A stretch of DNA of 64,000 bases. Source: Halichondria panicea. Its lineage: Eukaryota; Porifera; Demospongiae; Suberitida; Halichondriidae. How positions within the stretch are numbered: the first letter of the stretch is position 1; the number at the start of each line of letters is the position of its first letter. A model generated the notes under the pieces. It searched no databases and was not told the DNA's origin. It saw only the letters and a program-made list of their open reading frames with translations. Of this stretch, positions 1,564 to 55,971 are shown piece after piece. The translations under genes and the position numbers were made by a program. The stretch spans positions 2,272,800 to 2,336,799 of the forward strand of contig NC_087388.1 in assembly GCF_963675165.1 (NCBI RefSeq), given 5' to 3'.

Positions 1564-2600
1564 TTATATGGAACTTCTTCGACAAAGCGTATGTCTTGGC
1601 TCAGTAAGAAATGTGTGATTGTCATCTTTGCTCATTTGCTCCATAAGACAGACACTGTTCGTCAACACTGTGCCTTCACTGTCCATATCAGTGTTCCTTG
1701 CACTTTGCTTTTGGGCACCACCTGTAAGTCTCCCGATGATCCACTTCACCACTGGTATTGTAATAGTGTACAGTAACAGCAGAGCAAATGACCCAACACT
1801 GCAAATCATAGTGGCTAGGATGTAGACTCTATGCTGAGAAATTTCCGTAGTTTTTTCGTCAATGTCTGTATTAATTAGCAAACCAATATCAAATTGATAT
1901 AGTATTAGCTATAGTTATAATTATACCTGAGATCAGTTTCTGTATGTTGAAGGAGTTAGGGACATCATCCTCTGTACACAACAAAACTTTTAGTCTAACA
2001 TAATTATTTACGAATGTGTACCAATAATGTGCTAAGATTAACCTACCAATAACTTGTATCCTGAAGCTTTGATACTGTGGATTAGTCAGTTTATCGCCAA
2101 GAAACGGGACCGAGCCGGTACTCTCAGCAGCAAGATGAAGGCATTTATCACTCAAAGCCATCACACTGTTATTAATAGCATCATCACCGCGGATTGAAAC
2201 GATAAGACGCTGGCAAGAGGAGTGTCTTTGCTTGACTAGTTCATCTGGAGGACAATGGCTGCTAGAGTGAAGCCTAAAGTAGGGGTGATTTAGGTTAGGG
2301 TAAAGTGGATCAATGCACTCTCTCATTAAGTGATAGATGTATAGCGTATCTGTATGTTGTGTCTTCTTCTCCCTCTACATAGATTATTCCAAACTGGATC
2401 TCTGTCCAATTGTTTCTTTCAATTTGAAGGATACCATTTTGTACTTGAGGAGTCTTGAACGTGTCTATATACCAGTATGATATAGTAAGTGTGTGTACGC
2501 TGCATGGTTTAAACTCACCTATTACACGTGGGATCTGCTGACTGTAGTGCACGAAACAAATGAGTAGCGACAGAAACGTTGCTACTGGTTTTCGACTCAT
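1564..2600 (-). CDS. R1: single-pass membrane receptor-like protein, unknown ectodomain, frame break in exon 2
   Basis: Minus-strand model of four exons: 2600-2519, 2464-2047, 1971-1927, 1865-1564. Exon 1 starts at ATG 2600 and encodes a hydrophobic signal peptide (MSRKPVATFLSLLICFV). Exon 2 is an ectodomain I do not recognise: FKTP near the start, then W-T-E-I-Q-F-x-I-x-Y, a CP pair, and C-Q-R-L-I-V-S-I-R-G. R3 and R4 share this order. Exon 3 is a 15-residue linker. Exon 4 holds the membrane helix (SVGSFALLLLYTITIPVV) and a tail of about 65 residues. All introns are GT-AG and phase 1. Exon 2 is 418 nt, not a multiple of three: its two halves sit in different frames that meet at the CT run 2318-2324. 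Without that break the protein would be about 280 residues. It may be a pseudogene, a polymorphic allele or an assembly error. Ligand and function unknown. Confidence 0.68.
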
Positions 2601-2754
2601 TGCTTTTAAATTACTACAGTAGCTCAATCTTACTTAGTTTTATAGACATCACATCGACAAAAGTTGTTTATCACTTCAGAAAAACAATCCCATGAATTCT
2701 AGCGATAAACACAAACAACAATGCACATAGGAATGTGCTTAAGATATTCATTGA

Positions 2755-2961
2755 TTAATGGGGAAGTTCTGTCGAGTGACTGGTGTCGTTGTTTAGATTA
2801 GTTTCCAAAGGGACAATAGAGAAACAAACGAAGTTTTCATGATTATTTCTTGTAGCTACTTTTAAACTTGTGTGTAATGGTTCTATTTTTAGCACTACCT
2901 TGGGAATTTGTCTAGCCAAAAAGTCCCTTGCAGTAGTCAGTTTGTCTGCTTGTGGTCTCAC
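2755..2961 (-). CDS. Possible orphan cytoplasmic-tail exon
   Basis: Open frame of 68 codons on the receptor-cluster strand, between R2 and R1, ending in TAA. It is hydrophilic in its C-terminal half and resembles the last exons of R1 and R4 in size and composition only. No membrane exon, linker or signal exon was found just upstream, so if real it is a relic of a decayed receptor copy. Could equally be a chance frame. Confidence 0.15.
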   Translation of the reverse strand: MRPQADKLTTARDFLARQIPKVVLKIEPLHTSLKVATRNNHENFVCFSIVPLETNLNNDTSHSTELPH

Positions 2962-3949
2962 TACAATAGGGTGATGTTACCATCATTGCATTGTTATGCT
3001 TCTGTTGTCTGTTGTAAAAATGGACGATTGTGACAAAAAATTTCATGTGACACTATCGGTTGTTGCTTAGCCTCCTGGTGCTTGTATTTCATGTAATTTG
3101 AATCTATGTTGTTTGAAGCCATGGATTGTTTTCGGAGTATGTGGTGTCAACGATTTGCTGACCTATAATACGTTGAAATATCTGTTTTTGTGTATGGCCA
3201 GAGAATTAATTTGTATCACATTTTGTGTGAGGTTTGTATTTAATGTGTAATGTATTGCCGCCTGAGCAATTGCATTTGCACAAAATGGTTTTTCAGATTC
3301 TTGTTGTGGCTGTTTTCTGACAATAGATTTGCTACTGTAAACATAATTATAAAATTATGAATATACAAATTACTGATATTAAATTGGTGGTAAATGATAT
3401 GGTTACTGCTGGACGGGCATAAAATCTTGGCTCGTAAGTATTCATTAATTATAGCCACAGAAATTGTACCGTCGCCCCGGAGTACAGCTTGATACCAAAC
3501 TAATAGTTAAATCACAGATGGATTCTTAAAAATCAGATATCAAAAGAGCTGAGCATTCCTACTAACCTTTGTTTACAGATACACAAGTCTTGTTCCCATG
3601 CATGCAGGGTATTCCCTTATATACTCTTATCAAGGTGTTAGCAGATGGTAAGCTGCATGGTCTAGCTCTGTTGATTACTCAGCTGACAATTAAGGCAGTG
3701 CGTCTCAGAGAAGTATGGCTCCTGCCAGGCTAGGCTAGGCTAGCTGGAGTCGACTCCAGCTAGTCAGGGTACATGATAGGATCCAGAGTCAGCCAACAAC
3801 CAGTCACAATTTTAGCTTTCTACTTTAGTGACCCTGTTCCTTTGTTCCTTTTTTCCTGGTACGGGATCATTTCACTTGTAAATACGTAGGCTATCTCGAA
3901 TAATGGCTGCGTGTGCAAGTTCAAGCTTAGCTTACAAACCAACAGACTA

Positions 3950-4088
3950 CAGTGGTGGATCCAGGAATGTTGAGAGAGAGGTTCCAAAACAGTTAATTTT
4001 ACTAAAAAAAAAAAAAAGGGTCATCACTTTTCCTAAGCAATGAGCATGCGCATTAGAGAGCCCTGCAACCTGTCTGGATCCGCCACTG
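3950..4088. mobile_element. hAT-type MITE (CAGTGGTGGATCC ends)
   Basis: 139 bp with inverted ends CAGTGGTGGATCCAGG and GTCTGGATCCGCCACTG. The CAGTGGCGGATCCAG terminus is a common hAT-superfamily end. An internal A-run follows at about 4004. No coding sequence. Confidence 0.7.
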
Positions 4089-4828
4089 GACTATTATACC
4101 CGTATGCATGAGGTTGAGTAATTTGAACTGATTTTTCGCGTAGTTTGGAAACCATCTGAGTATGTGCACAGTGTCCACAATTTGCTAATTAATGTGCATA
4201 GTTTTGAATGTTCATAGTCAGATCGAGCATTCATATCACGTTTGTGTGAGGTCGTGTGTTAAAGGTGTGAGCTAGTTGCATTGCACTAAATGTTTTTTTT
4301 TAGAGATCTGCTATAATTATAATAATATGGTGGCTATTTTCTGACCATTGCTACTGTAACAGTAACTGTAATATAATTATTGCGGTAGTAAAGTTAGTCT
4401 GAGTGATAGTTATAATTAATATAATCATCTTTGAGTTTGTGGCTGGCTAACGTGCACTGCTGATCGGACTATACAGTACGAAACTGGTTCGTATATAATG
4501 ATAACTACATTTAATGTAGATGGTCATGCATTCTAAGAGCTCAGCATACCGTGTACATAACTTCGTTTACTATAAACAATCATGCGGGTTAACCCCAGGG
4601 CATTCCCCTATACTGTCAACTGTTATCAATTAAGGTGTAACTGCATGCGTGCATGCAGTTTGTTGCTTCCAGTCTAGCTTCTGTTGATACGATCTGTTCT
4701 TACAACAGTTACAATTAAGCACTACCTTTGACTGGTTATAATAAATAAATAAATAAATAATTTTTAAAAAATTCATAATGTCATAGGGTGCTTTGACTAT
4801 GTATCGTCTGTTGTAAGTGTTGTGAGTT

Positions 4829-6472
4829 TTACTGTACCAAAGCAATTAATGGATTAATCTTCACAACTCCTCCTATACTAGGCTGTAGCTCTAGGCCAGA
4901 TTCAGCATATCGATTGCCATTAATCTCGTTTAGTTCATGAGCTGCCGGACTGTCTGTGTCTGGCTGATTGTTTGGTGTATGCTGGTTTGTTATAATAATG
5001 TGCTCGTGTTGCTGGCTACTTTCTGCTGAAGAATTTTGAGCATCATTTTCCATCTGAATCTCTATTTCAACGGTCGGATGGCTCAAATCTATTTTCTCAT
5101 GTACTTCATCAGCCTGGCTTTCACCTTCCTCCATATCCTTAATCGACTTTCTCTCTGTTTTGTATCTTCGTAATTTACGACCACAGACTGCATTGAGTAC
5201 TAGTAGAAGCAGTAGAACAGTTTGTAGTGAATTGGTCAGCACGTTGTACATTGAAGCACTGTCTGCAGCTATGCTGAGCTCTGGTAAACCTGTGTTTTGA
5301 AATTTAAGAACAACAATTATAAGGGTGTGAGCCATTAGAAAAGTAGAAAATTTTAAGGTGGGTTAAGGTTGGAGCATATATACATTGTATAATGTAATGT
5401 GCAACTAAAGTGTGTGTTGACTGTGATATGCTTCTTTCCTAGCAGAGAAGCCTTTCCATCCAACCAATGTTTGAAAATTTCTTGAATTGGCTAATAATTA
5501 GTATTAGCTTTCTTCGTGCATATTTTGTATTGCTTCCAACTATCCCTGGGAATTACCTCTATGCGTGTGCATGCATGCGTATACCTTGACCCAATGTAAC
5601 ACCAGGAGAGCTTGTAGTAGAATCAGGGGTTGTGCAGGTCTGTCCTTTCACAGTGGTTGATTCTGGAGTTGTGGTTGTTTGTGTGCCATTGCTTGTTTCG
5701 GGGGTATTCTGCGTAGTCGTGGTGGGTGTACTGGTGTTTGGAGTCTCTGGTTTAGGTGTGGAGTGAATAGGAGAGAGTATAGATTATCTGGCATGTATGG
5801 ATATAAGTAACTATGGTTTTTGTGCATTGTTATGTTACAGTAATTGACATTCAAGTTATTGTTCCTTACCTATTGTAATCCTGATTTCAGTTGAGCTACA
5901 CGCTAAATCTATACGACTAGCAACATTATTGTTTAGCAAAGTGCACGCTTTTATAGTTTTATTGTCAAGTTTGTTTGATCTTGGAAGAAGTATGATTATC
6001 ATACTGTCACAATTTGAGTTGTTTGAAAATAGACAAGGCTGTTGAGAAGATATGGAGGATGTTGTGGTTGTTACTTCTGGATGAGTACGCATATGAAAAT
6101 TATCGATTAGTAGATGCCAGTTTTGCCTTTCGAATGAACTGTTATGTTGTCTTTCGCATATATAAAAAGCACGCCCATTAATTGGCACATGGAGTGTTCC
6201 ATCATCGTCTAGCGGAGGTTCCGTTGTACATCTGACAACTGGATGGTTGTGTGCAAAAATGAAAAGTGACAGCATTTGATAGACTATATAGTTCATCAGC
6301 TAGCTGTTATAATGCATGCAGTCCATGCAATCCTAGTAGTATCGATATATTAAATTGTAATAGGAAAGGTGTGCCCTTGATTAGTGTTATGGAACTCACT
6401 TTGTGCATTTACTGCACAGAAGTGCAAGCAGCCAATCGTTAGAAATAGAGCTGTTACTGTTCTTGATACCAT
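4829..6472 (-). CDS. R2: Ig-like domain single-pass membrane receptor with mucin-like stalk
   Basis: Four exons: 6472-6400, 6238-5870, 5746-5585, 5289-4829, together 354 codons with an intact frame and phase-1 introns. Exon 1 (ATG 6472) is a signal peptide, with TVTALFLTIGCLHFCAVNA as its hydrophobic core and cleavage region. Exon 2 (about residues 25-147) is Ig-like: a YIC cysteine, a W-H-L-L strand motif, SMIIILLP, two later cysteines and several N-glycosylation sites. It aligns in pattern with both ectodomain exons of R5. Exon 3 (about 148-201) is a Thr/Pro-rich, mucin-like stalk with four-residue Thr runs. Exon 4 has the membrane helix (LQTVLLLLLVLNAVCG), a basic stop-transfer KLRRYK and an acidic tail of about 115 residues ending near LELQPSIGGVVKI, a motif repeated in the tail exon at 63365-63556. 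Likely a cell-surface recognition or adhesion protein; ligand unknown. Confidence 0.78.
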
Positions 6473-6894
6473 CTTGGAGCAAAGGTTAAAACTGACTTGA
6501 CTGCTTGCTTGGCTGCTTTAGTAACCATCAGAATGCTATAGGGTATATCCCCCTTTGTGCAGTGTCATCACTAGTTAGCCTGTAATAACAGAAAGAATTT
6601 ATCACCCACTTGAGTTTAGTATATCAAATTTCAATGTATGAGAATATTTATACCGGTGCCTGTCTCAGGACACTTCCAATTGACTCCAAGTTCATAAGAG
6701 GTAACCTTTCATGTCGTAAACATGTTTATTTTTCTTTGTGTTCATACCTTCACGCATTATTTACCAGATATAATGTGCCGTAAAACGGGGAAATTTGGCA
6801 AGTATTATAATATTGGCAAATGAGCCACTTCAACCGACTTGGTGTTTTTTTATTTGACGTCTCAGGTGTGGCTACTACAGCAATGATGTGCGTA

Positions 6895-7197
6895 CAGTAG
6901 AACCTCAATTATCCGGACACCTTGGTTCCAGAAGGAGGCTGGATAAGTGAATATGCCGGATAATCAAATAGATAAACCACGCCTTGATCCACCCACTTTA
7001 TTGATAAACAGCAGTGCCACATGGTTGTCTGCGCATGCGCAGAAGATAAGCAGGCATGTCTCCATGGTAACAGCTGCAACGCGCATGCGCATTTGAGGGA
7101 CACGCTCATTTTCTGAATTATTATTTAAAAAGAAAACTGCCAAGCCGGATAATCGAGGTTCCGGATAATGGAGGGCTGGATAATCGAGGTTCTACTG
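6895..7197. mobile_element. Tigger/pogo-like MITE with TA target-site duplication
   Basis: 303 bp with ends CAGTAGAACCTCAATTATCC and GGATAATCGAGGTTCTACTG, flanked on both sides by TA (6893-6894 and 7198-7199). Termini of the form CAGTAGAACCTC with TA duplication fit pogo/Tigger elements of the Tc1-mariner superfamily. No transposase inside. A truncated transposase of this superfamily sits at 61090-61812. Confidence 0.75.
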
Positions 7198-7476
7198 TAG
7201 TTAAATTTGACGATCTTCGGAAAATTCGTCATATCACCACGTTATACAGTAGCTACTATTATGCCTTGGGTTTCAGGCCCCATATTAAATCTAAAGTGAG
7301 CTCCCTCTTGTGGAGGGTTTTACTTTAGTGTACGAGTATGATGTCAGTTAGGGCCACATGCATGCCCCTGTGCCTTCATTATTAACCCGAGGCTGGGCCG
7401 TGGCCAGCGAGTAGTCAGTGCCAGCGAGGTCAGTTTGTTTGTTTGTTTGTGACATCTGAGTCTATATATACATTTA

Positions 7477-7677
7477 TCGTCTAGGTAATTTTCGTGGGGC
7501 AAAATATGTGTGGTTGTCGTGGTTGAACACCGGACCACGAATATTTTACCAACAAATGAACAACCTTGCCTCTACCTTTACCTGCAGCAACCACAAAAAT
7601 ATTATCTACAAGTGACTACAATAATGATATTGTTCAACCACGAATGTTTTGCCACCCGAAAATTACCCGCTCTACGG
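7477..7677. mobile_element. MITE, GGGTAATTTTCG family
   Basis: Inverted ends containing GGTAATTTTCGTGGGGCAAA and its reverse complement (CCGAAAATTACCCGC). It shares its interior (a Pro/Thr-coding-like CTACCTTTACCTGCAGCAAC stretch) with the element at 30441-30648, so both belong to one family. The left edge has decayed and its exact base is uncertain. Confidence 0.65.
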
Positions 7678-8250
7678 TATACTCACTCTCATGCATTCTG
7701 GGAAGCTTCGTTGTCGAGGAAGCTTGCATGAACTTGCACGCTTTGGCTTTATGGCTGGCTAGCTACACGCGGCCTTTATTTGATATACATACTTGCAGCT
7801 GAAGTGATCCTTTACCAGTATCAATGGAAAAGGGTCCCTAAAGTAGAAAGCTAGAACGGACTCCAGGCTTCCATTGTTGACTTTGCACAGCATATGTTTC
7901 ATGCATCAGTTCTCAGCATGCCTTTAGTTTACTGCTCCGTTACTTAATTGCTGCCTATAGCCAGCTTTCATAATCATATATACTACCAGGAGTGCATGAA
8001 TCCTTTTTCGGAGAAAAAGGCATCTGTTCCATCTCCTCTATTGCACACAAATGAGCTGGGAATTCCTGCCTCTCTTTGTCCATTGAAATTCACTTCCTCA
8101 TCTCTTGTTCACATGTTCATTTCTATCCAATAAGTCATCTGAGTGCTAAAATCACAACGGCCAGCAGAATTGTCTGTATGCAGGTTATTGGCAATGTTGA
8201 GTAAGACAATACTGCACTCAACTAAGCTACTACAAAGAATCTCCCTATAA

Positions 8251-8620
8251 TTACCCGAGGCGCGCGTGGGCGGCCACGGGTATAGTAGTCCGTTGGTTTG
8301 TTTGTTTGTTTGTTTGTTTGTTTGTGATGGGCTTTTCTACTCACCTGGATGCCACAGCACTGCGTTTGCAGCATGGATAGCCTTCACACAACAATATCTT
8401 GGTTTAAATAGTGGCAGATTTTGATGTTAAAGCTTCTTTGTCGAGCAAAAGCTAAGAAGCTTGAACAAGCTTGTGACTAGGTCTGTTTACCTGGATGTTC
8501 TAGCACTGCGTTTACAGCATGGGTAGCCTCCACACAACAAGTTAATACTTTTGATAGTGGCAGCTTTCGGTGTTAAAGCTTTTTTGTCTAATAAAAGCGA
8601 GCAAAATGTGCACATGCGTT
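8251..8620. repeat. Dispersed repeat, TTACCCGAGGCGC family
   Basis: Starts TTACCCGAGGCGCGCGTGGG, contains a GTTT microsatellite and CACTGCGTTTGCAGCATGGA, and ends near an ATAAAAGCGAGC motif. Related copies: 37584-37770 (same strand), a short one near 7383, about 27130-27200 and an inverted one at about 63690-63930. No coding frame. Confidence 0.65.
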
Positions 8621-8635
8621 ACTTATAACTGAAGT

Positions 8636-8775
8636 GATCCTGTACCAAGAACAATGGAACAGGGTCACTAAAGTAGAAAGCTGTATATACCAGAAACAAT
8701 GGAACAGGGTCACTAAAGTAGAAAGCTGTATATACCAGAAACAATGGAACAGGGTCACTAAAGTAGAAAGCTTGA
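8636..8775. repeat. 45-bp minisatellite, three copies
   Basis: Three near-identical tandem units of 45 bp, each containing GGAACAGGGTCACTAAAGTA. Single copies of the unit occur near 7810-7860 and, inverted, near 3810-3880, so the array grew from a dispersed repeat. The 45-bp period keeps one frame open, but there is no sign it is coding. Confidence 0.85.
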
Positions 8776-9185
8776 ATTATAGCTCCTGCTGCTTTCTCAC
8801 TGCGATCTAGCCTCGATTCAAGGCCGATTAAAATACAATCGGAAACAGAAACAAGGCTAACTGGGATCCTACTCCAGGACCTGGAGCCATACTTCTCTGA
8901 GACTCCAGGCTTCTTTGCTGTGATCCTAATTAATCCACAGTGCATATATCTATAGTACCTTTCAGCATGCCCCCAGTCTGGTTTAGTTTATTGCTCCTGA
9001 GTTGCTGTGCAAGTCATACATGATAACAACATCACTATATGCACTGCATTATATTTCTGATTTCTTTATAATCATGTCACCAGCCGAGGGTTTGCACTTT
9101 AGTGCTCTAGTTACATGCAGTTGGCCTGAGCTTTTATCACCCTTACAGTTATAGTTATTCATTGAATAATGTCATTGATGAATCA

Positions 9186-10790
9186 TTACAATTCATGATT
9201 GTATAAAGGATTTTGACAGTTTTCTCCTAGTCTGATATCGTTGTTAGCTTGAGTTCCTTGGGGTGGTCTTCTGCAGGCTACAATTGCCACTAATGATAAA
9301 AACTGAAGTGTCGCTGATCCAATACTAACAAAGAAATGAATTTCACTGTTGCCCGTTATCCTACGAATATCTGAATAAAAGAAACGTTGCATAAGAAGTG
9401 CTCTATTGTAGCATTCATGAGTTTTATACCTGAAATTTCTTGTAGAACTATTTCAGGGGATTCAATGACTAAGCTTTGTGCTTGTGAGCAGGAATAGTAT
9501 GGTGGTGTTGAATCCTTTCTTGTTGATGCACTGGTTGGAGTGATACCATTATTATCAGCTGGAGTAAAAATATATTGATGCCATACAGTAATTTGGAACA
9601 TATGTATAATTATTATCGCTACGTTTTCATACTATTTTTAGGACGCATTTTACATTTTACTGTTGGTTCTACGTATTATACGCTCAGTGCAACAGCACAT
9701 GTACATGTACATGCATTTAAATATGTAACCATTAAACAACCAAATCTATATGACGTAAAATGTATACACCTGAAACAGACGTCGCTGTGATTATCAGTGT
9801 CGTTGCTTGGGAGGTAGATGTCGTCATTAGGGTTGGATCTGTGTGACAAAATTAACGTGCTAAGTCGTATAGGTTGTTCATGCGCTTGCAAATTTATGTA
9901 TATAGTGGTAGTTTTAAAGTGAGAATTTACAATCAACAGCCATGTATAGTTTACTCTGAACATGCTAACTTTATTATTGAGTTTTGCGTTGCAGAGAATG
10001 TACAGCATGTATAGCCTAACTCGACCTTTTAATTATGTATATGCCTGTACACAAAAGGTGCATGTGCTTATAGGGTCTGTAACCTTTAACTCTCAGAAGA
10101 AACTGCTCTTCCAGATTTATAGTCCCATTGAAGGTGTTGTTGAAAAACTTGTGTATACACAATGAAATGACCATATCTTGAATATGAAAGGTGCCTTTTA
10201 TAGCAATAACTAGTCTATCACAGGTTAGGTTTTGTCGTTGAAGTACATATGGACAGGTTACATTAGAGAGAAGGCTAGCCTTGTATGGAAATTCTGAGCT
10301 TGCAGTTTCCGGGTGTGATATGCAGATTCCTCTGTTTTGTATACTTATGCGATAACCGATCATTTCACGTTGAAGGTACGCAATTGCAAAATGAATTTCC
10401 TCCCACATCCCTTTCTCAACTTCAATTAAATCCAACTGAGGGGACTTGAACCCATCTGTATTTAAAATCAATTTCCTAGTTTTGTTTTGCATAATAATAA
10501 TGTGTTCATTGGACCAACACAGCTCATACTCTTTTTTTTTTATAAAAATTCAGCATAACAGCATAGGATATTCACAATTAGCTAGTAGCTAGGTGTAAAG
10601 TGCATCCTAAACAGAAACATCTGACAGTAACAGTATCTTCTATATGATACGTATACAGTATCTGCATTGAGCAGTTCATACATTGCATTCAGTACTTACG
10701 TAGCTCATACTGCAGTCCATAATGTGCATAGCTTAAAACTAGTACTAGTACTGTCAACGACTCTCTTATGATTTGGCTACAGCAAGGCAT
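9186..10790 (-). CDS. R3: single-pass membrane receptor-like protein, unknown ectodomain
   Basis: Five exons: 10790-10700, 10455-10084, 9838-9770, 9558-9430, 9370-9186, giving 281 residues with an intact frame. Exon 1 is a signal peptide (ATG 10790; core LTVLVLVLSYA). Exon 2 (about residues 31-154) is the best-preserved copy of the unknown ectodomain: GFKSPQ, then W-E-E-I-H-F-A-I-A-Y, NVTCP, C-D-R-L-V-I-A-I-K-G and SLCIH. Its donor reads G|GTTACA, an unusual sixth-base context but at the same aligned place as in R1 and R4. Exons 3 and 4 are Thr/Ser-rich linkers. Exon 5 carries the helix (about 231-253; SATLQFLSLVAIVA) and a short tail of about 27 residues ending NPLYNHEL. Introns are all phase 1. 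Function unknown. It is probably the functional reference for this ectodomain family in the window. Confidence 0.77.
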
Positions 10791-11917
10791 GATATTAATA
10801 TTACTACTATTAAGAACAAGACTGTGATCTGGTAGCTGCTATATGCAAATAAACTTCACTTGCTATAGCTATATAGTGTACACAACCATGCACCTGCAGC
10901 CTCACATGAGCCAATGAATGCACTTCTTCAAGGTATGAATTTCGTACACTTTGTTGTGTGGTGATGTGGGATATACAAAATGGGTGTACTTGGAATTTGA
11001 ATGGTCGTAATCACATACCAGTACATTGCATCACTTAAGCCTCAATCATTGACATAAATCATACAAGCTTCAAATTAACGGTTTTAGGTGAGCTAGCTAG
11101 ACGTCAACCTCATGCATTACTGGGTTCTACATCTTTTACTGCATGGTATTATCAAGGGCGTATACAGCCCTTGGTATTATTTACAGCATGCTGCATATAC
11201 TACATGTACATACTTGTGTAATAATTTACTTTCCAATCAGATTGCAAGATTCTATACTCAACTGCATTGAGATTCGCCACGCATCAATGCACTGTAGTAA
11301 AAGCAATGCAAGCTAATAGGGTGGTGCTTTAGGTTGAATCGGTATACATCCCAGAAGAGGTACGACATGCAGGAGCAATTAGATGTAGTTGGCAATGCAA
11401 GTTTTGATGAGTCAGCAAATGTGTTTAGATACAGCGTTTGTAGAGTCCTACGGCTAATAAAAACAACAGGCAGCAATTAATTGCAAGATCACTTCTATTT
11501 AGCTAACCTGTTAGTTCAAGGTCACTGAATTGAGATTCACGTAGCTACACATAATTATTTACTGACTCGACGTGTAGGACAATTACTATACACTTTGTAC
11601 CTGAGAACTAACAGGCTAGCTACATAGAAGTAATCTTGCAATTGCTGCCTGTTGTCTGTATTTACAACACTGTCAACAGTAGTATAATCCTTTGATGTCT
11701 GACCACAACGAGCAATAAATTATATACATATATACAGCTAAGCAAAATAGTTTATGTCCATCGTAAGCTATTACAATTGTATGCATGTTAATTGGTAGGG
11801 TAGTAATCTTGCATGTTGGAGCTTGTCACTTTTAAAGGCAGCTCGATTTGACTATTTCCTTCTTTGAAGGAGTGCGTATTGGACTGTATGGTGTAGCCAT
11901 GCATGCAGGCATTTCCT
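10791..11917. other. Intergenic between R4 and R3
   Basis: AT-rich. Contains a very short CAAGGGCGTAT-type inverted repeat near 11154-11177 and the foldback at 11463-11656. No exon recognised. Confidence 0.45.
11463..11656. repeat. Foldback inverted repeat
   Basis: Arms of about 55 bp. The left arm contains CAACAGGCAGCAATTAATTG and AACCTGTTAGTTC. The right arm is its reverse complement with a few changes (GAACTAACAGG and GCAATTGCTGCCTGTTG). The loop is about 85 bp. Probably a small non-autonomous element. Confidence 0.7.
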
Positions 11918-13479
11918 TTATTTGTTAGCAGCACACCATCTAGAACGCTCGTCAGCTCCCTCACAACTTTTATCAATTGGTGGTTTCTAAATGAAGAAAA
12001 TATAATTATGTACATGCAGCCTAACTCAGTAAAGATTGTGCACTAATTTTGCCAATAGCCTGTGCTAACACTACACGTATAGTATTACTTTATTGGTGTA
12101 TAATTCATGTCTCACCTTAGCTATACACAGCAATATGAATATGATAAAAGCTGCTCCTAGCAAAAGTATGATGAGTGCCCCAATAGGAACCACCAGAATA
12201 GCAACATTAATCGTAATCTCTCCAGTCCTATTGTCTATTGGTATATAGACACATAGATTAGTTCAAAACAAGTTGGAAATTTAGCCGGTATACGAGAATG
12301 GAATGCATTACGTACAGTACAGCAATCTATCTTATACATGTATGTAATTGTGCATCTCCCCACTTACTATAGCTAGGCCCTGATAAATTATGCTCAGAAT
12401 AATTTTAGCATCCGTAATAGGTGTCTAAAGAATAATTGGCATCAATGTCAATTTATGGTAAAGATTAATTACATTAAGTTTTGCATAAAACATGACAAAA
12501 ATGGCTGAAGGTGAATATTATGGATCAGTTTAAGTCAGCAAGATAACACGTACTAAGAATCGTAATTATGTCTTGTGTCAGTTGTATCAATTACGTAACT
12601 TTTTATGAGAATATTAGGCACATTTTTCAGGAATTAATGGGTGAAAAAAAAGAATGATTTATCAGGGCCTACCACTTACTAGGTAGTGCTATGTTCTCGA
12701 TATATCCTGGATGAGTTACAGGAGTTTCTGTAAAGGTATATGCATAAATTACACATGATGTATTTATATCACGTTGTCAAGGTAAAAATAATGATTTCTA
12801 CCGTGTTATTTTTGTTATTACACGCTTACGAGGCTCAGCATAATTGGTATGATATACATGCAATAATTATACAGGCAACTTGCCCTCGGGATTGTGCCTG
12901 TGTATTTCATACAGCACTCGATCTCATGCTCATAATTACAGTACCTACGTACCTATAGAAAGAACCTCAATGGTGAACTCTTGTGGTAGGAGGATGTTTA
13001 CGCGAGTCGTTGTGTGTAGACACAAGCTGACTATTTGCCCGTGCAAACTTTGCTGACCTTGCACTAGAACCACTATCCTATCACAGGTGATATTGTGGTG
13101 TCCCTGCTCATTAAGCACCCGTTCTGGGCAATAGGTACGTGCTCGGAAAGTTGAATATCTCAAATGGGAAGCCTGCCCCCTCAACATTAGTAGCACACTT
13201 AGATTTGAAAAATACACGCGGGAAATACCTCTCTGACGATGTATTACGGGGAGTATCATAGGAAATTACAAATTCCATTTGTTTCCATTTCCCCACTTCG
13301 ACTTGCATCGTGTCTGTGTCTGGTGCCTTGAATGAATCTGAAAGGTACAGTTTGTCAGTGAATAATAATTATTTACTTTTTAAGATGAGCTAGCTAGGCA
13401 GCCACTTACTCGGCAAACTTTGTGAGCGTACTGTGCTAGAGTACAGTATAACGAAGATGAGCTCTCTGAGAAGTATCAT
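11918..13479 (-). CDS. R4: single-pass membrane receptor-like protein, unknown ectodomain, frame break in exon 2
   Basis: Five exons: 13479-13410, 13337-12953, 12727-12680, 12234-12116, 11986-11918. Exon 1 (ATG 13479) is a signal peptide (core LIFVILYSS). Exon 2 has the R1/R3-type ectodomain: DSFKAP, W-K-Q-M-E-F-V-I-S-Y, YCP, C-D-R-I-V-V-L-V-Q-G, SLCLH. Exon 2 is 385 nt, one more than a multiple of three. The reading frame before and after the C5 run (13176-13180, plus strand) differs by one base; discounting one base makes the whole model 229 residues. Exon 3 is a 16-residue linker. Exon 4 carries the helix (VVPIGALIILLLGAAFIIFI), and exon 5 a 22-residue tail beginning KPPIDKSCEG. The tail exon is the least certain part because a longer alternative frame exists there. 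Either a young pseudogene or a homopolymer sequencing error. Confidence 0.68.
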
Positions 13480-13562
13480 TGCGATTGAACTGGTGTGTTA
13501 AATGATTTAATTACCTAATATTTATAGGGCAACATGTGTACTTTGTTGGGAATTCCCCAGGT

Positions 13563-13965
13563 AAAGCACCGGGGGGGGGGGGGGGGGCCATGAGGTGTAT
13601 ACAGTAAACAGTTCATTAATATGAATGAATCCATTTTAGTTAATAGTCACTGCATGATGCAATTGGTATGTACTCATCAACGAATATCAGTCCTTAGAGT
13701 ACGTAAACCTGTGAACAGATGGTGGTATAACATGTATACATTTTACCTATAGCTCCTCTAACTTGTACTTACCTATAATTATATGGTAGATGAGTTTGAA
13801 CTTAATAGTCACTAAGTATGCAATTGATAATGTGTTCTGTCAACTGTCAACGATGGTAGTATGATCAGTCCTGAGAGTTAAACCTTTGAACAGTGGGTAA
13901 TAATTATGAACATCTACCTCCTCCAAACTTGTACTTACCTGTGAAAGATGAGTTTGCTTCAATAT
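13563..13965. repeat. Poly-G tract and about 150-bp tandem duplication
   Basis: A G-run at about 13571-13588, then two adjacent diverged copies (about 13630-13800 and 13801-13965), both carrying TAGTCACT, ATCAGTCCT, AACAG and a splice-donor-like GTACTTACCT on the plus strand. The second copy includes the last modelled exon of R5 (13939-13979), so the first copy may hold a duplicated or decayed exon. Confidence 0.6.
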
Positions 13966-16900
13966 CCAAATCCAATTTTCTGGATGTGATAAGATGAATA
14001 TGCCTGCATTCTCATATAAAAAGAATCGAGTATACTCACCTTTTAGATTTTTTCCTCCACCAAATATAAAATAAAATAACTCCTCCTAACAATAACAGTA
14101 TTACTATAAGAACCAGGACGATTGAGAGGCCTGTACCAAGGCCGATGTTGAGACTATCTAAAATTTAGTGTGTGTGAAGTAATCGAAGAATTATAGCTTG
14201 TTTGAGCCTCATTGAAGTAAGTACCTATAATGAAAGGTGTGTCATTGTTGCAGTTTTTGAGCTCTTGAGCTGGTTGCAACCATGAAACTGTATACACATG
14301 GAAGATAGAGCACTTGAATTATTTTACTTGAACAATAGTACAGACTACAACCTTTTTCACCTCACTTGAAATATCAGTTTAAAAACAAAAAAAGAAACAT
14401 ACCACTAATTGACCTCAGGTATGTGTATATATAGTAATGGTCAGAGCTGGGCATGCTCACAGTTTCAAATTGTAAATGAATGATTGGTTGTGCAAGACCT
14501 ACATCTATTTTTAGAGCGTTGTATTGATGTGTTTAGCCTTCTTTCGAGTGAATCCTAGGCGTTTAAGTAGACAGTATAATGTGGCAGCACTTTAGATCTA
14601 CCAGTAATCTGAAGCAATTGGGTCAGAATTTTAGGTAGTCGGCTTTTCACAAATAATTTCAATTCATCGTGAGATCATATAGACAGTGCTCCCTTGGGCT
14701 GGCTTTATAAGCAGCGACACATCTCCAGTGAATTGAAATCTATCAACAACCCCCAAACATGTAGTAGCTTCAGCAACAAACAATCTATCTGCTGCTTCCC
14801 GATGGTACAGCAATTGACAAGCTTTTTCCATACCATTCTCCACCTCAGATACAAGGATTATAGGATTTTGCACAGCCAGGTTCCCCCATTATTACTACTG
14901 TGAGCATGCTCAGCTCTGACCATTACTATATGTACACATACCTGAGGTCAATTAGTGGTACATTTCTTTTTTTGTTTTTAAAATGTATATTTCAAGTGAG
15001 GTGAAAAAGGTTGTAACATCAAGAGTTCATTAGGAAGAGTACCATCTCCACTTAAAACCATCTAGGTCACAACCACATGCTGTTATATAAACTGTGAAAT
15101 CTTGATTTAGGACATGAAGAATAGCATTAGTATTTCATCACTCCTAAGGTTTACAATAGCGAGTATTTGTGACGTACACGTAGGTCTGGCAGAATGCCTC
15201 CTGTGTACAGTGTATATTTAAATTCATTTGCTTATACTTTCCTTGAACTCTTGCTAACCAGAGGAGGTGGGACATGCGTCATCAGTACGTCACATGGCAA
15301 TGGAATGTGTGGCATATACAATGTTTACGTTAGGCTCTTGACCTTAAACATTTCAGTGTAGCTATGGTGCCTGTGGTAGATCTACTGTTGTGCTCTCTAG
15401 CAAGCTCACATCACTTTCTAGTCATCTCAAATATTGTATATAGAAGACGGCAACCAATCTGAGTAACCCTCCCCCCCTTCCTAGATGGTATCCATAGTAG
15501 CCTTATGTACAGTGAAAACCTACTAATTGCTGGTGCATTTTTAAGCTATTGAGCTGGGATCGCTGATCCACAAGTTAGTACCATCCTTTCACTAGATCGA
15601 GAAAGTGACCGTGGGATTGCTACTGTTTTGGCAGTTTAAAGATTGGCACTTTTTCATGCACAAATCCTTGTCTAAATTAACGTGGATTGTTAATTAAAAC
15701 ATATGTTACTCACTGCTAATTGTTTATGTGTGTGGGAGTGGTGGTTGGCTTGAAATTCCCTGGATATTTCCCTGGGTATTTCCCTTGTTGACATGTCAAC
15801 AAAATTAATATTTGTTGGCCTGGCATATTTTATTATCAAAGCCTACTATCAAGGGTGTATACAAAACCTTTGCAACACACCAGTAAAAGCGTAGAGCGGT
15901 ACGCGTTCCTTTGTGTACACACTGTGGTCTGTTTTACTACTTAAATGTGTGAGTATTTCCCATATAAGGAATCGCAGTGCTCAACACTTTTATTCGCAAA
16001 GATACTGCAAACTCCAGTAAAGGAGAGGGCATGCAGCAAAACTCCAAAATTAATTCAAATCGTGGGCGAATGAACGCGAATGAAGTGCTAAAATTAGATT
16101 TTTCTATTTTAGCACTTCATGTAAATTCCACATTCATCTGCCCACGGTTTGAATTTATGGCCGCTACGTGTAGCCCTCTTCTTTTATACGCCCTTGCTAC
16201 AATATCTAGAACAGTATCATAGATTGAGTAAAGAGGTCGGTGGCATTTATAAATAATTATTCTGTCTGCCATGCTCTTAATTGCTAATTGTTTATGCAAC
16301 TTGCCTGTGAGATTGAGGTTTATGCAGGTTTGTTTCTGTTCCTGCTGGTGCATTTTTTTCTCGAGTGCACATACTGGTACTAAAGTGTTATTGTTAATTG
16401 CCAGAATTGTTATTAAACCGTGACTACTATATTGTCCTGCATCAGTCGTATTGCTAAATCTTGTTATAGTATATGACTCTGGACTTGCCACTATTTTATT
16501 ATTATATAGTAAGTGCAGTACATCATATCGAGCCAGGGGTCCAACTGTACATTCCACTTGGACATACGCACTGCCATTGTTCTGTCCGATTTGATATGCT
16601 TGACAGTTAGGAGTAGTTCCAGATAGCGCAACTGTAGAGACAAACAGACCAGTGTTCATGCATACTGCTTCATATTAAACATTGCGTATCTGGAAATTAT
16701 ATATACATCAATGATTACATCCATGATAACATACCAGACACATTCAGACGCTTGTCTTGATTAATTTCGTCACAGCTGTCGTTAGTTGGTTGTGGTGAGA
16801 TAGTTGGGAATAGTAGTGCTGGTATATTTGGGGAAGAATTTAGGAAACATGCATTAACGCTGAGCCAATAGAGGGGAGAGGTGTGCATAACAAACCAATA

Positions 16901-18391
16901 AGTGAGTTTTTAAATTACCGAAGAGGGCACGGCCTCGCTACTGGAAGGGCAGAGCCTTCGCTAATCAATAAGGGATTTAACCCCACCTATAAAAAGCCGG
17001 TGATGCACAGTGAACCCCCGGCCGGCCTGAGAAAGAGGTATGAATACCCCCCCCCTGATGGAACAAGGGAGGGAGGCGAAAAATCACAGGCAATAAGCAG
17101 CAGAGATAGAATGGCGATTAACTTTGCAGAGATAGAGTCACATGGAGTTGAATCTACTGCCCATGCCCGAAATATCCGAATAATTAGAATACCTAACCAT
17201 AAGGCGACCCTGTGCCAAATAATATAACAATATCTATACGATCACTGCTCCTAATAACCCAAGCGCTCTCCCCCTTTGCTCCCGTTACAAAACACCCATT
17301 AATTTCTGTAAATCGATCCTACTGTTCTATTATACCTGCCCCTTGATATGGGCTTATCTATAACCAAGCACTCTCTCAAATCGAATTATAGCCCAAGGAG
17401 ATTCCGGGGCTGCAAATTGATAACTAGTATAATCCACCCCAAACTGACAAACTACTATGATTATGCAGCTCTGCACGGGACAACACTATAGACTCGCTAT
17501 ATATACCCAGTCAGTCCCATCCGCAAGGGAAGGGACTGGTCAACTGGCTTTAGTTGTATGACATCATCATGTGGTTTGTGTGGTTGATCAATGTTGCGTA
17601 ACTATCAAGTGAATGTGTCCGTGGTTATTCTAACACAGCATTAGCTCCAGCCCAATTACGTAGACGAAGTATGTTATTATGCATAACATTGCTTCTGCAC
17701 TGTAATTAGTCATCAACTTCAGGTAATGAGAACAATCAACTCGATGATTGGCAGTTGACCAGTCCCTTCTCTTGTGGATGTGGGACTGGCCAGCAGGTCT
17801 AAAACACCCTTCTATATATTAAAGACGTTTGCTAATCAACATTATTTTATTTTAGGCTTATTTGAAATCTCAGTAACTTACTTGTGTAGTTGAGGACCCT
17901 TCTAAAATCCTGCAAAAGAGGTTGATCTGTTTCGTTTTGGAATTTCCATGCCACAACTTCTATTTTGTTACTGTAGTTGATTTCAAGCTTCAGAATTGAC
18001 TCCAAAACAAGTAGATTTGGTTCAGGATTAGTACGCATCACCTTAGTTACAACAGCTGGCGAAGGATACTTTCCTTGTGTGCTCCTCTTCTGTAATACAT
18101 CATCAAAAAGGAGTTCCAGAGTGTCGTATCGAGAAGTGGGAGCCTCACAATTAATTTTGTAGTAACGTTGAGAATTATTCAGTTTATATTCTTGACATTG
18201 AAGACTGGATGAGCAGTAACCTGCAGTGAAAATGTTCCAAGAGCAATGATTCTGTTTATAGATTGAACTGGCATGTGAATCATTAGACTATAGCTACACT
18301 TATAATAGTTGCATGCAAACAATAGATAGACACATACATTTTTACCTGCAGTGATGGTGGTAGCAAGAAGCAAACAAAGTACTCCTCTCAT
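13939..18391 (-). CDS. R5: membrane receptor-like protein with two Ig-like domains (3' end unresolved)
   Basis: Exons: 18391-18346, 18220-17882, 16818-16735, 16631-16305, 14157-14040, 13979-13939. The first five junctions agree in phase, giving about 318 residues so far; the final exon was not found. Exon 1 is a short signal peptide (MRGVLCLLLATTITA; a GTG-initiated extension is not needed). Exon 2 (about 16-128) and exon 4 (about 157-265) are homologous Ig-like modules sharing C-Q-x-Y near the start, a Y-x-x-x-x-C strand and R-Y-D-x-L-x-L-L. Exon 3 is a linker rich in Pro, Thr and Asp. Exon 5 has the helix (LSIVLVLIVILLLLGGVILF) followed by WWRKKSK. Exon 4 uses a GC donor (G|GCAAGT). The long intron between exons 4 and 5 contains two foldback elements, and that between exons 2 and 3 another. 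It could instead be two genes, but no second signal exon was seen. Confidence 0.6.
14346..15015. mobile_element. Foldback element, about 670 bp, with long inverted arms
   Basis: Arms of about 120 bp (14346-14472 and 14898-15015) are near-perfect inverted repeats; both carry CTAATTGACCTCAGGTATGT or its complement and a TTTTTTTGTTTTTAAA tract. The interior is not palindromic and holds a 69-codon open frame on the minus strand (14664-14873) of unknown meaning. It lies in an R5 intron. Confidence 0.75.
15850..16196. mobile_element. MITE, CAAGGG family, with internal hairpin
   Basis: Ends CAAGGGTGTATACA and TTTTATACGCCCTTG. The interior has a perfect-looking hairpin around ATGAAGTGCTAAAATTAGAT and TTTTAGCACTTCAT (about 16078-16121) and diverged repeats ATTCAAATCGTGGGC versus CCCACGGTTTGAAT. 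Same family as 944-1183. In an R5 intron. Confidence 0.65.
16819..17508. other. R5 intron: long stretch without family assignment
   Basis: Intron sequence with a locally higher G+C block (about 16920-17200) that is open for 115 codons on the plus strand (16883-17227). Codon content looks unlike the neighbouring exons, and there is no motif or splice evidence. It could be part of an old repeat. Followed by a MITE. Confidence 0.35.
17509..17791. mobile_element. MITE with about 37-bp inverted ends
   Basis: The left end contains AGTCCCATCCGCAAGGGAAG and GGACTGGTCAACTGG. The right end is CAGTTGACCAGTCC followed by the complement of the rest. Total about 283 bp; no coding sequence. Located in the R5 intron between exons 2 and 3. 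Confidence 0.75.
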
Positions 18392-29189: not shown

Positions 29190-29264
29190 AGTAGCTTAAT
29201 GTGCTGTTATAGAATTTGTTGTAATTAATGCTCTTGCACTATCGTGAACCTCTGACAAATTATT

Positions 29265-30236
29265 ATGAATGCAACTTCTCTAAATGATACTGTGGAGTTA
29301 CCTCATTGGGCACCACTGACTGTTGTCAATGTGATCATCTTCATTGGTGTGCTTCTTCCAACTACACTTCTCATGAATATCTCTGTTTTGGTGGCTCTAA
29401 TCAAGAGCAAGGTTAAGTACAAGCCGTTGCTGGTCCTTTTTGGATCCCTTTTGATTGGTGTCTGTATAGATAAAGTGATTATATGTGTAGGCCAGTGTGT
29501 CATTTCACCCTCAGCTTTTCGCTACTGTCGTTGTGTTAAATTGACTGTTGTTCTATTCCAAGCTCCAAGGATTTTCTTTACAGTATATCCAATCATCATT
29601 GTGACCTGTCTCAGCCTCTCACAGTTGTGGTTAGTGAAAGGAAAACTGTCAAACAACTACAAGCAGCCTCTCATTTGCTTGGTGATATCGGTTTTTGTCT
29701 CTGCATTTTGGACTCTTGTATTTATTGTCGGGAATGTCTTGAGCAAATTACCATTTGGTTGTTACACTCTCTGCACAGTTCCAGTTGGATTCAGTGCAAC
29801 TATGGTGGCTGTGATTTCTTTTTCAGCCATCACCTTCGCACCTGCTTTTATTATTACCATAGTAGCTTCAATATGGACATTTCAGATATTTAAGAAGAGC
29901 TTCATAGTTCGATCCAATACCAAGAATGAGATTGCACTGAATCGACGGATGATTTTACTGCCTATACTGATGGCTATTCTTCTAGTTTGCAATAGTTTGC
30001 TTGCCTATATTGTCACCATAACATCAACTACTATTTTAAAGAACTCGGATGTGGTGTATTTTTACGGGAACTGGTCTAATATCATTGCTAGCTTGGAGTA
30101 TGGTTTGTTCGATATATTTAACGGGCTATCATTTCCACTTGTTCTTCTCTATCTCTACACCCACGTCAGAGACACCTGGAAGAGGCTAGTATGTAAATTA
30201 TTGTGTTGCAAATGTACACAAGCTTTAGGCTCTTAA
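29265..30236 (+). CDS. GPCR1: single-exon 7TM receptor, sponge-type
   Basis: 323 residues. N-glycosylation sites NAT and NDT lie before helix 1. Approximate helices: 20-45, 55-77, 91-124, 136-159, 173-206, 229-253, 271-298. Cysteines at 88/90 and 166/170 could form the usual extracellular disulfide. Helix 3 ends in LSLSQLW rather than DRY. Helix 7 has D-x-x-N-G-L-S-F-P-L-V-L-L-Y, an NPxxY-like variant, then a basic stretch and KLLCCKC, a likely palmitoylation site. Overall rhodopsin-like, but I cannot assign a ligand class. It is nearly identical to GPCR2; the tail is 17 residues shorter because the CAA codon after ALGS has become TAA, with the old tail still readable downstream. The start ATG is conserved in all copies. 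Presumably a plasma-membrane G-protein-coupled chemoreceptor. Confidence 0.9.
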   Translation: MNATSLNDTVELPHWAPLTVVNVIIFIGVLLPTTLLMNISVLVALIKSKVKYKPLLVLFGSLLIGVCIDKVIICVGQCVISPSAFRYCRCVKLTVVLFQAPRIFFTVYPIIIVTCLSLSQLWLVKGKLSNNYKQPLICLVISVFVSAFWTLVFIVGNVLSKLPFGCYTLCTVPVGFSATMVAVISFSAITFAPAFIITIVASIWTFQIFKKSFIVRSNTKNEIALNRRMILLPILMAILLVCNSLLAYIVTITSTTILKNSDVVYFYGNWSNIIASLEYGLFDIFNGLSFPLVLLYLYTHVRDTWKRLVCKLLCCKCTQALGS

Positions 30237-31731: not shown

Positions 31732-31804
31732 AGTAGCTTAATGTGCTGTTATAGAATTTGGTAATTAATGCTCTTGCACTATCGTGAACCTCTGACAAAT
31801 TATT

Positions 31805-32827
31805 ATGAATGCAACTTCTCTAAATGATACTGTGGAGTTACCTCATTGGGCATCACTGACTGTTGTCAATGTGATCATCTTCATTGGTGTGCTTCTTCCA
31901 ACTACACTTCTCATGAATATCTCTGTTTTGGTGGCTCTAATCAAGAGCAAGGTTAAGTACAAGCCGTTGCTGGTCCTTTTTGGATCCCTTTTGATTGGTG
32001 TCTGTATAGATAAAGTGATTATATGTGTAGGCCAGTGTGTCATTTCACCCTCAGCTTTTCGCTACTGTCGTTGCGTTAAATTGACTGTTGTTCTATTCCA
32101 AGCTCCAAGGATTTTCTTTACAGTATATCCAATCATCATTGTGACCTGTCTCAGCCTCTCACAGTTGTGGTTAGTGAAAGGAAAACTGTCAAACAGTTAC
32201 AAGCAGACTGTCATTTGCTTAGTGATATCGGTTTTTGTCTCTGCATTTTGGACTCTTGTATATATTGTCAGAAATGTCTTGAGCAAATTACCATTTGGTT
32301 GTTACACTCTCTGCACAGTTCCAGTTGGACTCAGTGCAACTATGGTGGCTGTGATTTATTTTTCAGCCATCACCTTCGCACCTGCTTTTATTATTACCAT
32401 AGTAGCTTCAATATGGACATTTCGGATATTTAAGAAGAGCTTCATACTTCAATCCAATACCAAGAATGAGATTGCACTGAACCGACGGATGATTTTACTG
32501 CCTATACTGATGGCTATTCTTCTAGTTTGCAATAGTTTTCTTGCCTATATTGTCACCATAACATCAACTGCTATTTTAAGTAACTCGGATGTGGTGTATT
32601 TTTACGGGAACTGGGCTAATATCATTGCTAGCTTGGAGTACGGTTTGTTCGATATTTTTAATGGGCTATCATTTCCACTTGTTCTTCTCTATCTCTACAC
32701 CCAAGTCAGAAGCACCTGGAAGAGGCTAGTATGTAAATTATTGTGTTGCAAATGTACACAAGCTTTAGGCTCTCAAAATAACACTCAAAATAACACTCAA
32801 ATAACACTGAATAGCCCAGCCCATTAA
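31805..32827 (+). CDS. GPCR2: single-exon 7TM receptor, sponge-type
   Basis: 340 residues, same architecture as GPCR1 with only scattered substitutions (for example KLSNSYKQTV and VGLSATMVAVIYF). Keeps the full-length tail ALGSQNNTQNNTQITLNSP with an Asn/Gln/Thr repeat. Lacks DRY at the end of helix 3, has the NGLSFPLVLLY motif in helix 7 and the CCKC palmitoylation candidate. Frame intact and start conserved. It is the second unit of a recent tandem duplication, so its flanks match those of GPCR1. Role presumed to be surface chemoreception; ligand unknown. Confidence 0.9.
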   Translation: MNATSLNDTVELPHWASLTVVNVIIFIGVLLPTTLLMNISVLVALIKSKVKYKPLLVLFGSLLIGVCIDKVIICVGQCVISPSAFRYCRCVKLTVVLFQAPRIFFTVYPIIIVTCLSLSQLWLVKGKLSNSYKQTVICLVISVFVSAFWTLVYIVRNVLSKLPFGCYTLCTVPVGLSATMVAVIYFSAITFAPAFIITIVASIWTFRIFKKSFILQSNTKNEIALNRRMILLPILMAILLVCNSFLAYIVTITSTAILSNSDVVYFYGNWANIIASLEYGLFDIFNGLSFPLVLLYLYTQVRSTWKRLVCKLLCCKCTQALGSQNNTQNNTQITLNSPAH

Positions 32828-35432: not shown

Positions 35433-35480
35433 AGTAGTGTGATGTACTGTATAGAATTTGTCTAATCGTGAACCTCTCAA

Positions 35481-36482
35481 ATGAACGCAACTTTTCTAAA
35501 TGATACTGTGGAGTTCCCTCATTGGGCACCACTGACTGCTGTTAATGTGCTCCTCTTCATTGGTGTGCTTCTTCCAACTACACTACTCATGAATATCTCA
35601 GTATTGGTGGCTCTAATCAAGAGCAAGGTCAAGTACAAGCCCTTGCTGGTCCTCTTTGGATCCCTTTTGATTTGTGTCTGTATCGACAAACTGATTATAT
35701 GTGTAGGCCTGTGTGTCATCTCACCTTCAGCTTTTCGCTACTGTCTTTGTGCTAAGTTGACTATTATTCTATTCCAAGCATCAAGAGTTTTTTTTACAGC
35801 ATATTCAATCATCATTGTGACCTGTCTCAGCCTTTCACAGTTGTGCTTAGTAAAAGGAATACTGCCAAACAACTACAAACAGACCATCATTTGCTTGGTA
35901 GTGTCAGTCCTTGTTTCTGCATTTTGGACACTTGCATATATTGTTGGAAATGTTTTGACCACTGATTCACAAATTGGTTGTTACACCCCCTGTAGTACAG
36001 TTTCAGCTGGATTTACTACAACTATGCTCATTGTGACTTGTTTTTCAGCCATCACCTTAGCACCTGCTTTTATTATCACAATAGTAGCTTCAATATGGAC
36101 ATTTCGGATATTCAAGAAGAGCTTCATACTTCAATCCAGTAACAAGGGTGAGATTGCGCTGAATCGACGAATGATTTTACTGCCTGTATTGATGGCCATT
36201 CTTCTAGTTTGCAACAGCTTGCTTGCCTATGTTGTCACCTTAATATCAACTACTATCTTAAATAATTCGGATGTGATGTTTTTTTACGGGAGCTGGTCTA
36301 ATGTCATTTCTAGCTTAGAGTTTGGTACACTCGATATTTTTCATGGTCTGTCATTTCCACTTGTTCTACTCTATCTATACACCCAAGTCAGAGACACCTG
36401 GAAAATGCTAGTCTTTAAATCCTTGTGTTGCAAATGTATTGTAACACAAGATTTAGCCTGCTCTTACAAAGACACTGCATGA
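35481..36482 (+). CDS. GPCR3: single-exon 7TM receptor, sponge-type
   Basis: 333 residues, the most diverged intact copy. Same seven helices and Cys pattern. The second extracellular loop is longer (TTDSQIGCYTPCSTVS) and the tail differs (KCIVTQDLACSYKDTA). Helix 7 has HGLSFPLVLLY in place of NGLSFPLVLLY. The inner half of helix 3 and the third intracellular loop (FKKSFILQS) are strongly conserved, suggesting the same G-protein coupling but possibly a different ligand. Frame intact, start in the same context as the other copies. Confidence 0.9.
   Translation: MNATFLNDTVEFPHWAPLTAVNVLLFIGVLLPTTLLMNISVLVALIKSKVKYKPLLVLFGSLLICVCIDKLIICVGLCVISPSAFRYCLCAKLTIILFQASRVFFTAYSIIIVTCLSLSQLCLVKGILPNNYKQTIICLVVSVLVSAFWTLAYIVGNVLTTDSQIGCYTPCSTVSAGFTTTMLIVTCFSAITLAPAFIITIVASIWTFRIFKKSFILQSSNKGEIALNRRMILLPVLMAILLVCNSLLAYVVTLISTTILNNSDVMFFYGSWSNVISSLEFGTLDIFHGLSFPLVLLYLYTQVRDTWKMLVFKSLCCKCIVTQDLACSYKDTA

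Positions 36483-45130: not shown

Positions 45131-55971
<10,841 letters not shown>

Follow-up and report, generated by a model that had tools for sequence, protein, structure and literature searches.

The cluster and its common gene plan

We analyzed a window of 64 kb from the genome of the sponge Halichondria panicea (contig NC_087388.1, C12:2272800-2336799 in our numbering), which contains five minus-strand genes, G1 to G5, with the features of single-pass surface proteins. Exons were modeled from splice consensus, reading frame, and paralogue conservation, with boundaries picked with the frame in mind. The genes start at 18391 (G1), 13479 (G2), 10790 (G3), 6472 (G4), and 2600 (G5), and G5 ends at 1564. 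All five follow a common plan: a signal exon (46-91 nt), an ectodomain exon (327-418 nt; two in G1), linkers (45-162 nt), a membrane exon, and a tail. A preliminary description of the window had counted zero to three linkers per gene; our models give one or two. The modeled exons, presumably spliced in this order, are listed below, where 1-1 denotes a domain exon of 3n bases between phase-1 introns and hydropathy refers to a 19-residue stretch.

18346..18391, minus strand: G1 signal exon, 46 nt
17882..18220, minus strand: G1 ectodomain exon 1, type A, 339 nt, 1-1; matches G1 ectodomain 2 (E = 0.0016)
16735..16818, minus strand: G1 linker between the two ectodomains, 84 nt
16305..16631, minus strand: G1 ectodomain exon 2, type A, 327 nt, 1-1; GC donor; low-confidence Ig-like model
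14225..14287, minus strand: G1 linker, 63 nt
14040..14157, minus strand: G1 membrane exon, hydropathy 3.35
13904..13979, minus strand: G1 tail exon to stop (tentative)
13410..13479, minus strand: G2 signal exon, 70 nt
12953..13337, minus strand: G2 ectodomain exon, type B, frame shift
12680..12727, minus strand: G2 linker, 48 nt
12116..12234, minus strand: G2 membrane exon, hydropathy 3.31
11918..11986, minus strand: G2 tail exon
10700..10790, minus strand: G3 signal exon, 91 nt
10084..10455, minus strand: G3 ectodomain exon, type B, 372 nt, 1-1
9770..9838, minus strand: G3 linker 1, 55% Ser/Thr
9430..9558, minus strand: G3 linker 2, 29% Ser/Thr
9186..9370, minus strand: G3 membrane exon and tail, hydropathy 2.0; NPLY in tail
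6400..6472, minus strand: G4 signal exon, 73 nt
5870..6238, minus strand: G4 ectodomain exon, perhaps diverged type B, 369 nt, 1-1
5585..5746, minus strand: G4 linker, 53% Ser/Thr
4829..5289, minus strand: G4 membrane exon and 118-residue tail, hydropathy 1.91
2519..2600, minus strand: G5 signal exon, 82 nt
2047..2464, minus strand: G5 ectodomain exon, type B, frame shift
1927..1971, minus strand: G5 linker, 45 nt
1564..1865, minus strand: G5 membrane exon and tail, hydropathy 2.27

Two of these genes had been described as looking broken, and our models agree. In both G2 and G5, the length of the ectodomain exon is not divisible by three, and its expected frame is interrupted by stops. The signal, linker, and membrane exons of these genes are in order, the latter two with the expected frame open. 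Each frame shift may be a real lesion or an assembly error.

Extending the search beyond the window enlarged the cluster. We examined the flanks of the window on C12 (100 kb below, 20 kb above) and 80 kb around a match on contig C16, and compared 4985 frames of at least 30 residues, window included, with the exon proteins. The frame comparison revealed five further genes of the same plan on the same strand below the window: G6 and G7 in piece L017, G8 and G9 in L016, and G10 spanning L015 and L014 (L014-L017 label pieces below the window on C12). The original count of five genes in 17 kb thus holds for the window, but the whole cluster comprises at least 10 genes across C12:2242464-2291190, about 49 kb.

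We also searched the genome (131.5 Mb, 39 contigs) with nine ectodomain queries: the two G1 domains (G1a and G1b), G3, G4, the G5 piece, G7, G10, G11, and G12, the ectodomains of G2, G6, G8, and G9 not being among them. At E < 0.001, only two members were found outside the cluster. The one on C16, G11, has the signal, ectodomain, linker, and membrane exons and hardly any tail; the other, G12 on contig C17, is 65-66% identical to G6 and G8 and was read up to the start of its membrane exon. Since five of the queries (G1a, G1b, G4, G10, and the G5 piece) matched nothing but themselves at this threshold, members are often too diverged to be found with another member as query, and there are at least 12 in all. 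Weaker matches lay at C12:5653417 (E = 0.10) and C16:828012 (E = 1.46), and on C1 (E = 1.71) and C11 (E = 4.83). A search for COX1 gave a single short fragment interrupted by two stops.

The junction phases were as regular as first described. All 12 junctions ahead of the membrane exon in the intact window genes are phase 1 (five in G1, four in G3, three in G4). Across the ten intact modeled genes (G1, G3, G4, and G6-G12), the same holds for 33 of 33 (three each in G6-G12, with the membrane junctions of G10 and G12 read by eye), a count in which duplicated genes are not independent and boundaries were our own choice. All ten have class 1-1 domain exons. Given these limits, the stronger argument against chance lies in the plan common to unlinked genes and in the coding constraint on older paralogue pairs. 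Boundaries chosen by eye and models built on sequence alone would fit a gene-prediction artefact, with chance open reading frames (ORFs) strung together by splice consensus; the recurrence of plan and phases in unlinked genes and the constraint on older paralogues make this hardly credible. By the evidence of the unlinked genes and of three constrained older pairs, the cluster represents a gene family, beyond what chance would produce.

Phase-1 symmetry is, however, no evidence for a recognition role, since it is ordinary in animal extracellular modules: according to PMC8001218, animal extracellular proteins have as a rule been assembled by shuffling of class 1-1 modules, and phase-1 introns are overrepresented close to signal-peptide boundaries. 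The cluster genes resemble the modular proteins described there in having ectodomain and linker exons between phase-1 introns, and differ in that their ectodomains belong to no Pfam-recognized family. The description of a modular single-pass tandem family stands as regards tandem duplication, broken members, and strong divergence, whereas the recognition reading is not carried by phase symmetry.

Several other elements lie among the cluster genes. At two places (window 6900-7200 and L014 ~9200-9530), a short sequence with inverted ends of about AGTAGAACCTCGATTATCCGG was seen by eye; it resembles a non-autonomous transposon. A second short element, whose ends are complementary and ACCAAGGGCGTATAAAAGAAGAGGGCATGCA-like, recurs within or between cluster genes (window ~950-1200 and 16040-16220, L015 ~60-290; also by eye). 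A 45-base tandem repeat of 2.9 copies separates G3 and G4 (8643-8772), and a sushi domain is encoded by the one ORF tested between G9 and G10 (L015 3374-3628) on the plus strand, opposite to the cluster genes.

Ectodomain types, duplication, and divergence

The preliminary description had recognized two ectodomain types mixed between genes. Types do differ between genes, but we distinguish three, with G4 perhaps a diverged member of the second and G1 carrying two ectodomains. Type A consists of the two G1 domains, 30% identical, and is set apart from the others by its sequence. Type B comprises G2, G3, G5, G10, and G11. The G3 ectodomain matched that of the unlinked G11 (E = 9e-7, 28-29% identity), and the G2 and G5 pieces matched G3 with E-values of 7.5e-6, 4.2e-4, 0.0024, and 0.029 in the set of 4985 frames. 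G10 was assigned to this type through a shared start, a Cys motif, and a weak match to the G2 piece (E = 0.14). Type C comprises G6-G9 and G12.

Relationships between types were examined with 24 shuffle tests of profile against sequence, one of which gave no score. The score of G4 against the B profile was reached by 5 of 1000 shuffles, and that of G12 against the same profile by none of 1000. A Cys-Cys motif common to B, C, and G4, defined post hoc, matched 9 of 13 sequences tested (G11, G1a, G1b, and the G2 piece miss it) and is only suggestive of kinship. It is plausible, from these comparisons, that B, C, and G4 form one superfamily.

The type C genes are similar enough to trace their duplication. 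Signal, ectodomain, and linker exons each divide the five genes into G6/G8/G12 versus G7/G9, and the membrane exon divides four of them into G6/G8 versus G7/G9. Such a uniform split is expected from block duplication, apparently of a two-gene unit now represented by G6+G7 and G8+G9. The exons had been called interchangeable; this is possible only, since their modules split alike, and the sole hint of a mosaic history comes from G12. Its signal exon is 96% identical to those of G6 and G8, as against 76-77% for the ectodomain (Fisher P = 5.5e-6 and 1.1e-5) and 77-83% for intron 1, and its synonymous divergence from them is 0.36-0.39 in the ectodomain versus 0.05-0.08 in the signal exon. Within this trio, the signal exon showed no preference for G6-G8 over G12, whereas the ectodomain favored G6-G8. 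This suggests that parts of G12 have different histories, through conversion or exchange, or else that the signal exon is too short and carries little information. An excess of ectodomain over signal-exon divergence was absent in G6-G8, where similarity is fairly even along the gene (0.89-0.96), and in G7-G9, where intron 1 (0.60) is less similar than the ectodomain (0.86). Because the second intron of G12 is much longer, its alignments with G6 and G8 are unusable beyond the ectodomain.

We then estimated selection from the ratio of nonsynonymous to synonymous differences per site (pN/pS). Among recent pairs, the ectodomain ratio was 0.74 for G6-G8 (P = 0.32 for neutrality), 0.70 for G7-G9 (P = 0.20), 0.72 for G8-G12 (P = 0.13), and 0.77 for G6-G12 (P = 0.14); the ectodomains of recent duplicates (pN/pS 0.70-0.77) are, by this measure, loosely constrained. 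Of six possible older pairs, three were tested and gave 0.46 (G6-G7), 0.49 (G8-G9), and 0.59 (G9-G12), with P printed as 0.000, 0.000, and 0.001. The label "fast-evolving" is thus apt insofar as neutrality was not rejected for recent pairs, but no ratio over a whole ectodomain exceeded 1 in any pair tested and the three older pairs are constrained. Positive selection on the ectodomains was considered and not shown. Values above 1 arose from small counts that we do not take as evidence: 1.22 in a 15-codon window, 3.94 in a 7-codon end window with one synonymous change, and 1.63 in the G7-G9 signal exon (five versus one changes); nor do we so take 1.03 in the G8-G12 linker.

These ratios bear on a prosaic explanation, namely that the genes encode ordinary adhesion, surface-coat, or gamete proteins in a cluster decaying under relaxed constraint, whose diversity has no recognition meaning. 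The neutral behavior of recent pairs, the two frame-shifted members, and a 1-1 plan that is generic in animals all fit it. The constraint on the three older pairs and the frames open over the exons read in 10 of the 12 known members speak against it, and we regard this explanation as possible but not probable.

A probable role in contact between surfaces

The reading we favor, at a probability of roughly 0.6, is that the cluster is one group within a multigene family encoding stalked type I single-pass surface glycoproteins that act by ectodomain contact. The predicted proteins have the corresponding parts. N-glycosylation sequons occur in all 11 intact ectodomain exons, 8 of 14 linker exons contain at least 37% Ser/Thr (up to 68%), so that the stalks may well be glycosylated, and a hydrophobic 19-residue stretch (hydropathy 1.91-3.52) was present in 10 of 10 membrane exons tested, G10 and G12 being left out. 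Nine of ten tails are 7-60 residues long, and that of G4 has 118; for G7 and G9, the final tail exon was identified by eye. An immunoreceptor tyrosine-based inhibitory motif (ITIM) or YxxΦ motif was found in none of the ten tails tested (those of G10 and G12 left out), and the tail of G3 carries NPLY. Direct tyrosine signaling is therefore not apparent, and the term "receptor" used in the preliminary description goes beyond the evidence of the tails.

A signal peptide would direct each protein to the cell surface, where it would display one domain of ~110-125 residues (two in G1), perhaps an immunoglobulin (Ig)-like beta sandwich, raised on a stalk that is short and in many cases rich in Ser/Thr. 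A single membrane helix would serve as the anchor, followed by a usually short tail without the tyrosine motifs sought. The ectodomain would most likely act through contact with a microbe or a partner on another cell, and signaling would require a partner protein. Copies would arise by tandem block duplication (G6+G7, G8+G9) with occasional dispersal (to C16 and C17), after which the weakly constrained ectodomains would diverge and some of the copies would degenerate. Of the possible roles, recognition or adhesion through contact is the likeliest.

A number of results weigh against this reading. The first concern the ectodomain fold. Pfam returned only chance-level names for the four window ectodomains and the G2 piece, and likewise no significant match for 10 of the 11 intact ectodomains (G12 left out); no Ig family appeared for these ten among rows at E ≤ 10, although filters drop most matches above 0.1. 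The surface domains of this family thus escape recognition by Pfam. Profile searches against PDB gave no matches with A1 and three rows with A3 (E = 1.1-1.4), of which two bear the titles of Ig chains. Structure prediction, which had been suggested as a check, yielded a weak Ig-like lead from one domain: both AlphaFold models, built with window sequences only, were poor (mean pLDDT, the model's own confidence score, 32.9 for the G3 domain and 50.3 for G1 domain 2), and with the G3 model too poor to search, Foldseek was run on G1 domain 2 alone. In that model six strands and no helices are predicted; Cys27 lies on the second strand and Cys87 on the fifth, which we assign, as a weak lead, to Ig strands B and F. 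Foldseek reported 1000 matches at E ≤ 10, and 41 of 50 among the matches listed belong by title to the Ig superfamily; the best E-value was 0.045, none of the matches listed fell under 0.001, and the run had no control fold. PDB is rich in Ig domains. G1 domain 2 may thus, weakly, be an Ig-like sandwich.

Further points on the same side are that 6 of the 14 linker exons are not Ser/Thr-rich; that the gene models come from splice consensus and boundaries set by eye; that only B-G12 and B-G4 stand out among the shuffle tests, the four other C members falling short against B; and that hhalign profile comparison of types A, B, and C was not significant (P = 0.11, 0.44, and 0.21). The four recent pairs are compatible with neutral or relaxed evolution, and the counting tests ignore transition bias.

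An innate immune or microbe-binding family, including decoys or proteins for symbiont adhesion, diversified by birth and death, would likewise show tandem expansion, broken and dispersed copies, and loosely constrained ectodomains. We consider it unlikely, as the Pfam scans of the ectodomains contained no known microbe-binding domain.

In its general features the sponge cluster resembles the Alr and fester families and may, by analogy, work like them. Alr protein tails carry tyrosine signaling motifs, whereas the tails tested here lack ITIM and YxxΦ. In PMC11067881, the Hydractinia Alr family is described as clustered single-pass genes of low identity, with many presumed pseudogene models and with Ig-superfamily membership backed by AlphaFold. 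The sponge genes share with it predicted single-pass type I proteins in a genomic cluster, low identity, and broken members, but for an Ig fold they offer no more than a weak lead. The fester and fester co-receptor families of Botryllus are, according to PMC12065747, clustered surface genes with shared architecture and little amino-acid homology, as in the sponge cluster. Fester proteins, however, have three membrane helices and the cluster proteins one; the combination of Ig and sushi domains was not seen here, with no sushi match in the ectodomains scanned by Pfam; and no tyrosine-motif partner was recognized for the cluster proteins. Closer to hand, PMC11999971 describes a Geodia cydonium sponge adhesion molecule as a surface protein with an Ig-like domain sequence, a likeness of description and not of sequence comparison.

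The resemblance to Alr bears on whether the cluster could be an allorecognition or histocompatibility locus, in which polymorphic ectodomains would bind like to like and govern fusion or rejection. The broad look of the Alr family (PMC11067881), the divergent ectodomains, and the mosaic hint in the one comparison of G12 with G6/G8 would fit such a locus. A 341-base query from G1 had a single genomic match, the tails lack the tyrosine motifs, and no whole ectodomain had pN/pS above 1, all of which make it distinctly improbable. The bolder form of this idea, a lineage-specific, cryptic Ig-like family with individual-specific ectodomains governing tissue fusion or rejection, and the first such single-pass locus in the phylum, is very doubtful.

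The contact-acting family itself is probably lineage-specific; a limited literature search contained no recognizable description of it. To our knowledge, sponge recognition genes outside the aggregation-factor family are poorly known. As genes of a sponge, they provide an assembled set of candidate surface genes for testing against fusion and rejection phenotypes; were they monomorphic and conserved, they would amount to an ordinary adhesion-protein cluster.

Other elements in the window

Beyond the cluster, the plus strand between 26196 and 37618 carries a tandem array of seven-helix-like single-ORF proteins, alike by eye, with long ORFs at 29256-30236, 31796-32827, and 35472-36482 and fragments at 26196 and 37223. 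None of the three long ORFs had a Pfam match (one searched at E ≤ 1, two at E ≤ 0.01), and the array possibly represents lineage-specific receptors. A large minus-strand ORF at 47202-49448 encodes ankyrin repeats with a Roc match just below the cut-off and a weak COR-B match, in the manner of a ROCO-type protein. Smaller features are a tyrosine-kinase-like exon (43171-43449, plus strand), a reverse-transcriptase fragment (57920-58255, plus strand), and a transposase-like ORF with an HTH_psq match (61003-61812).

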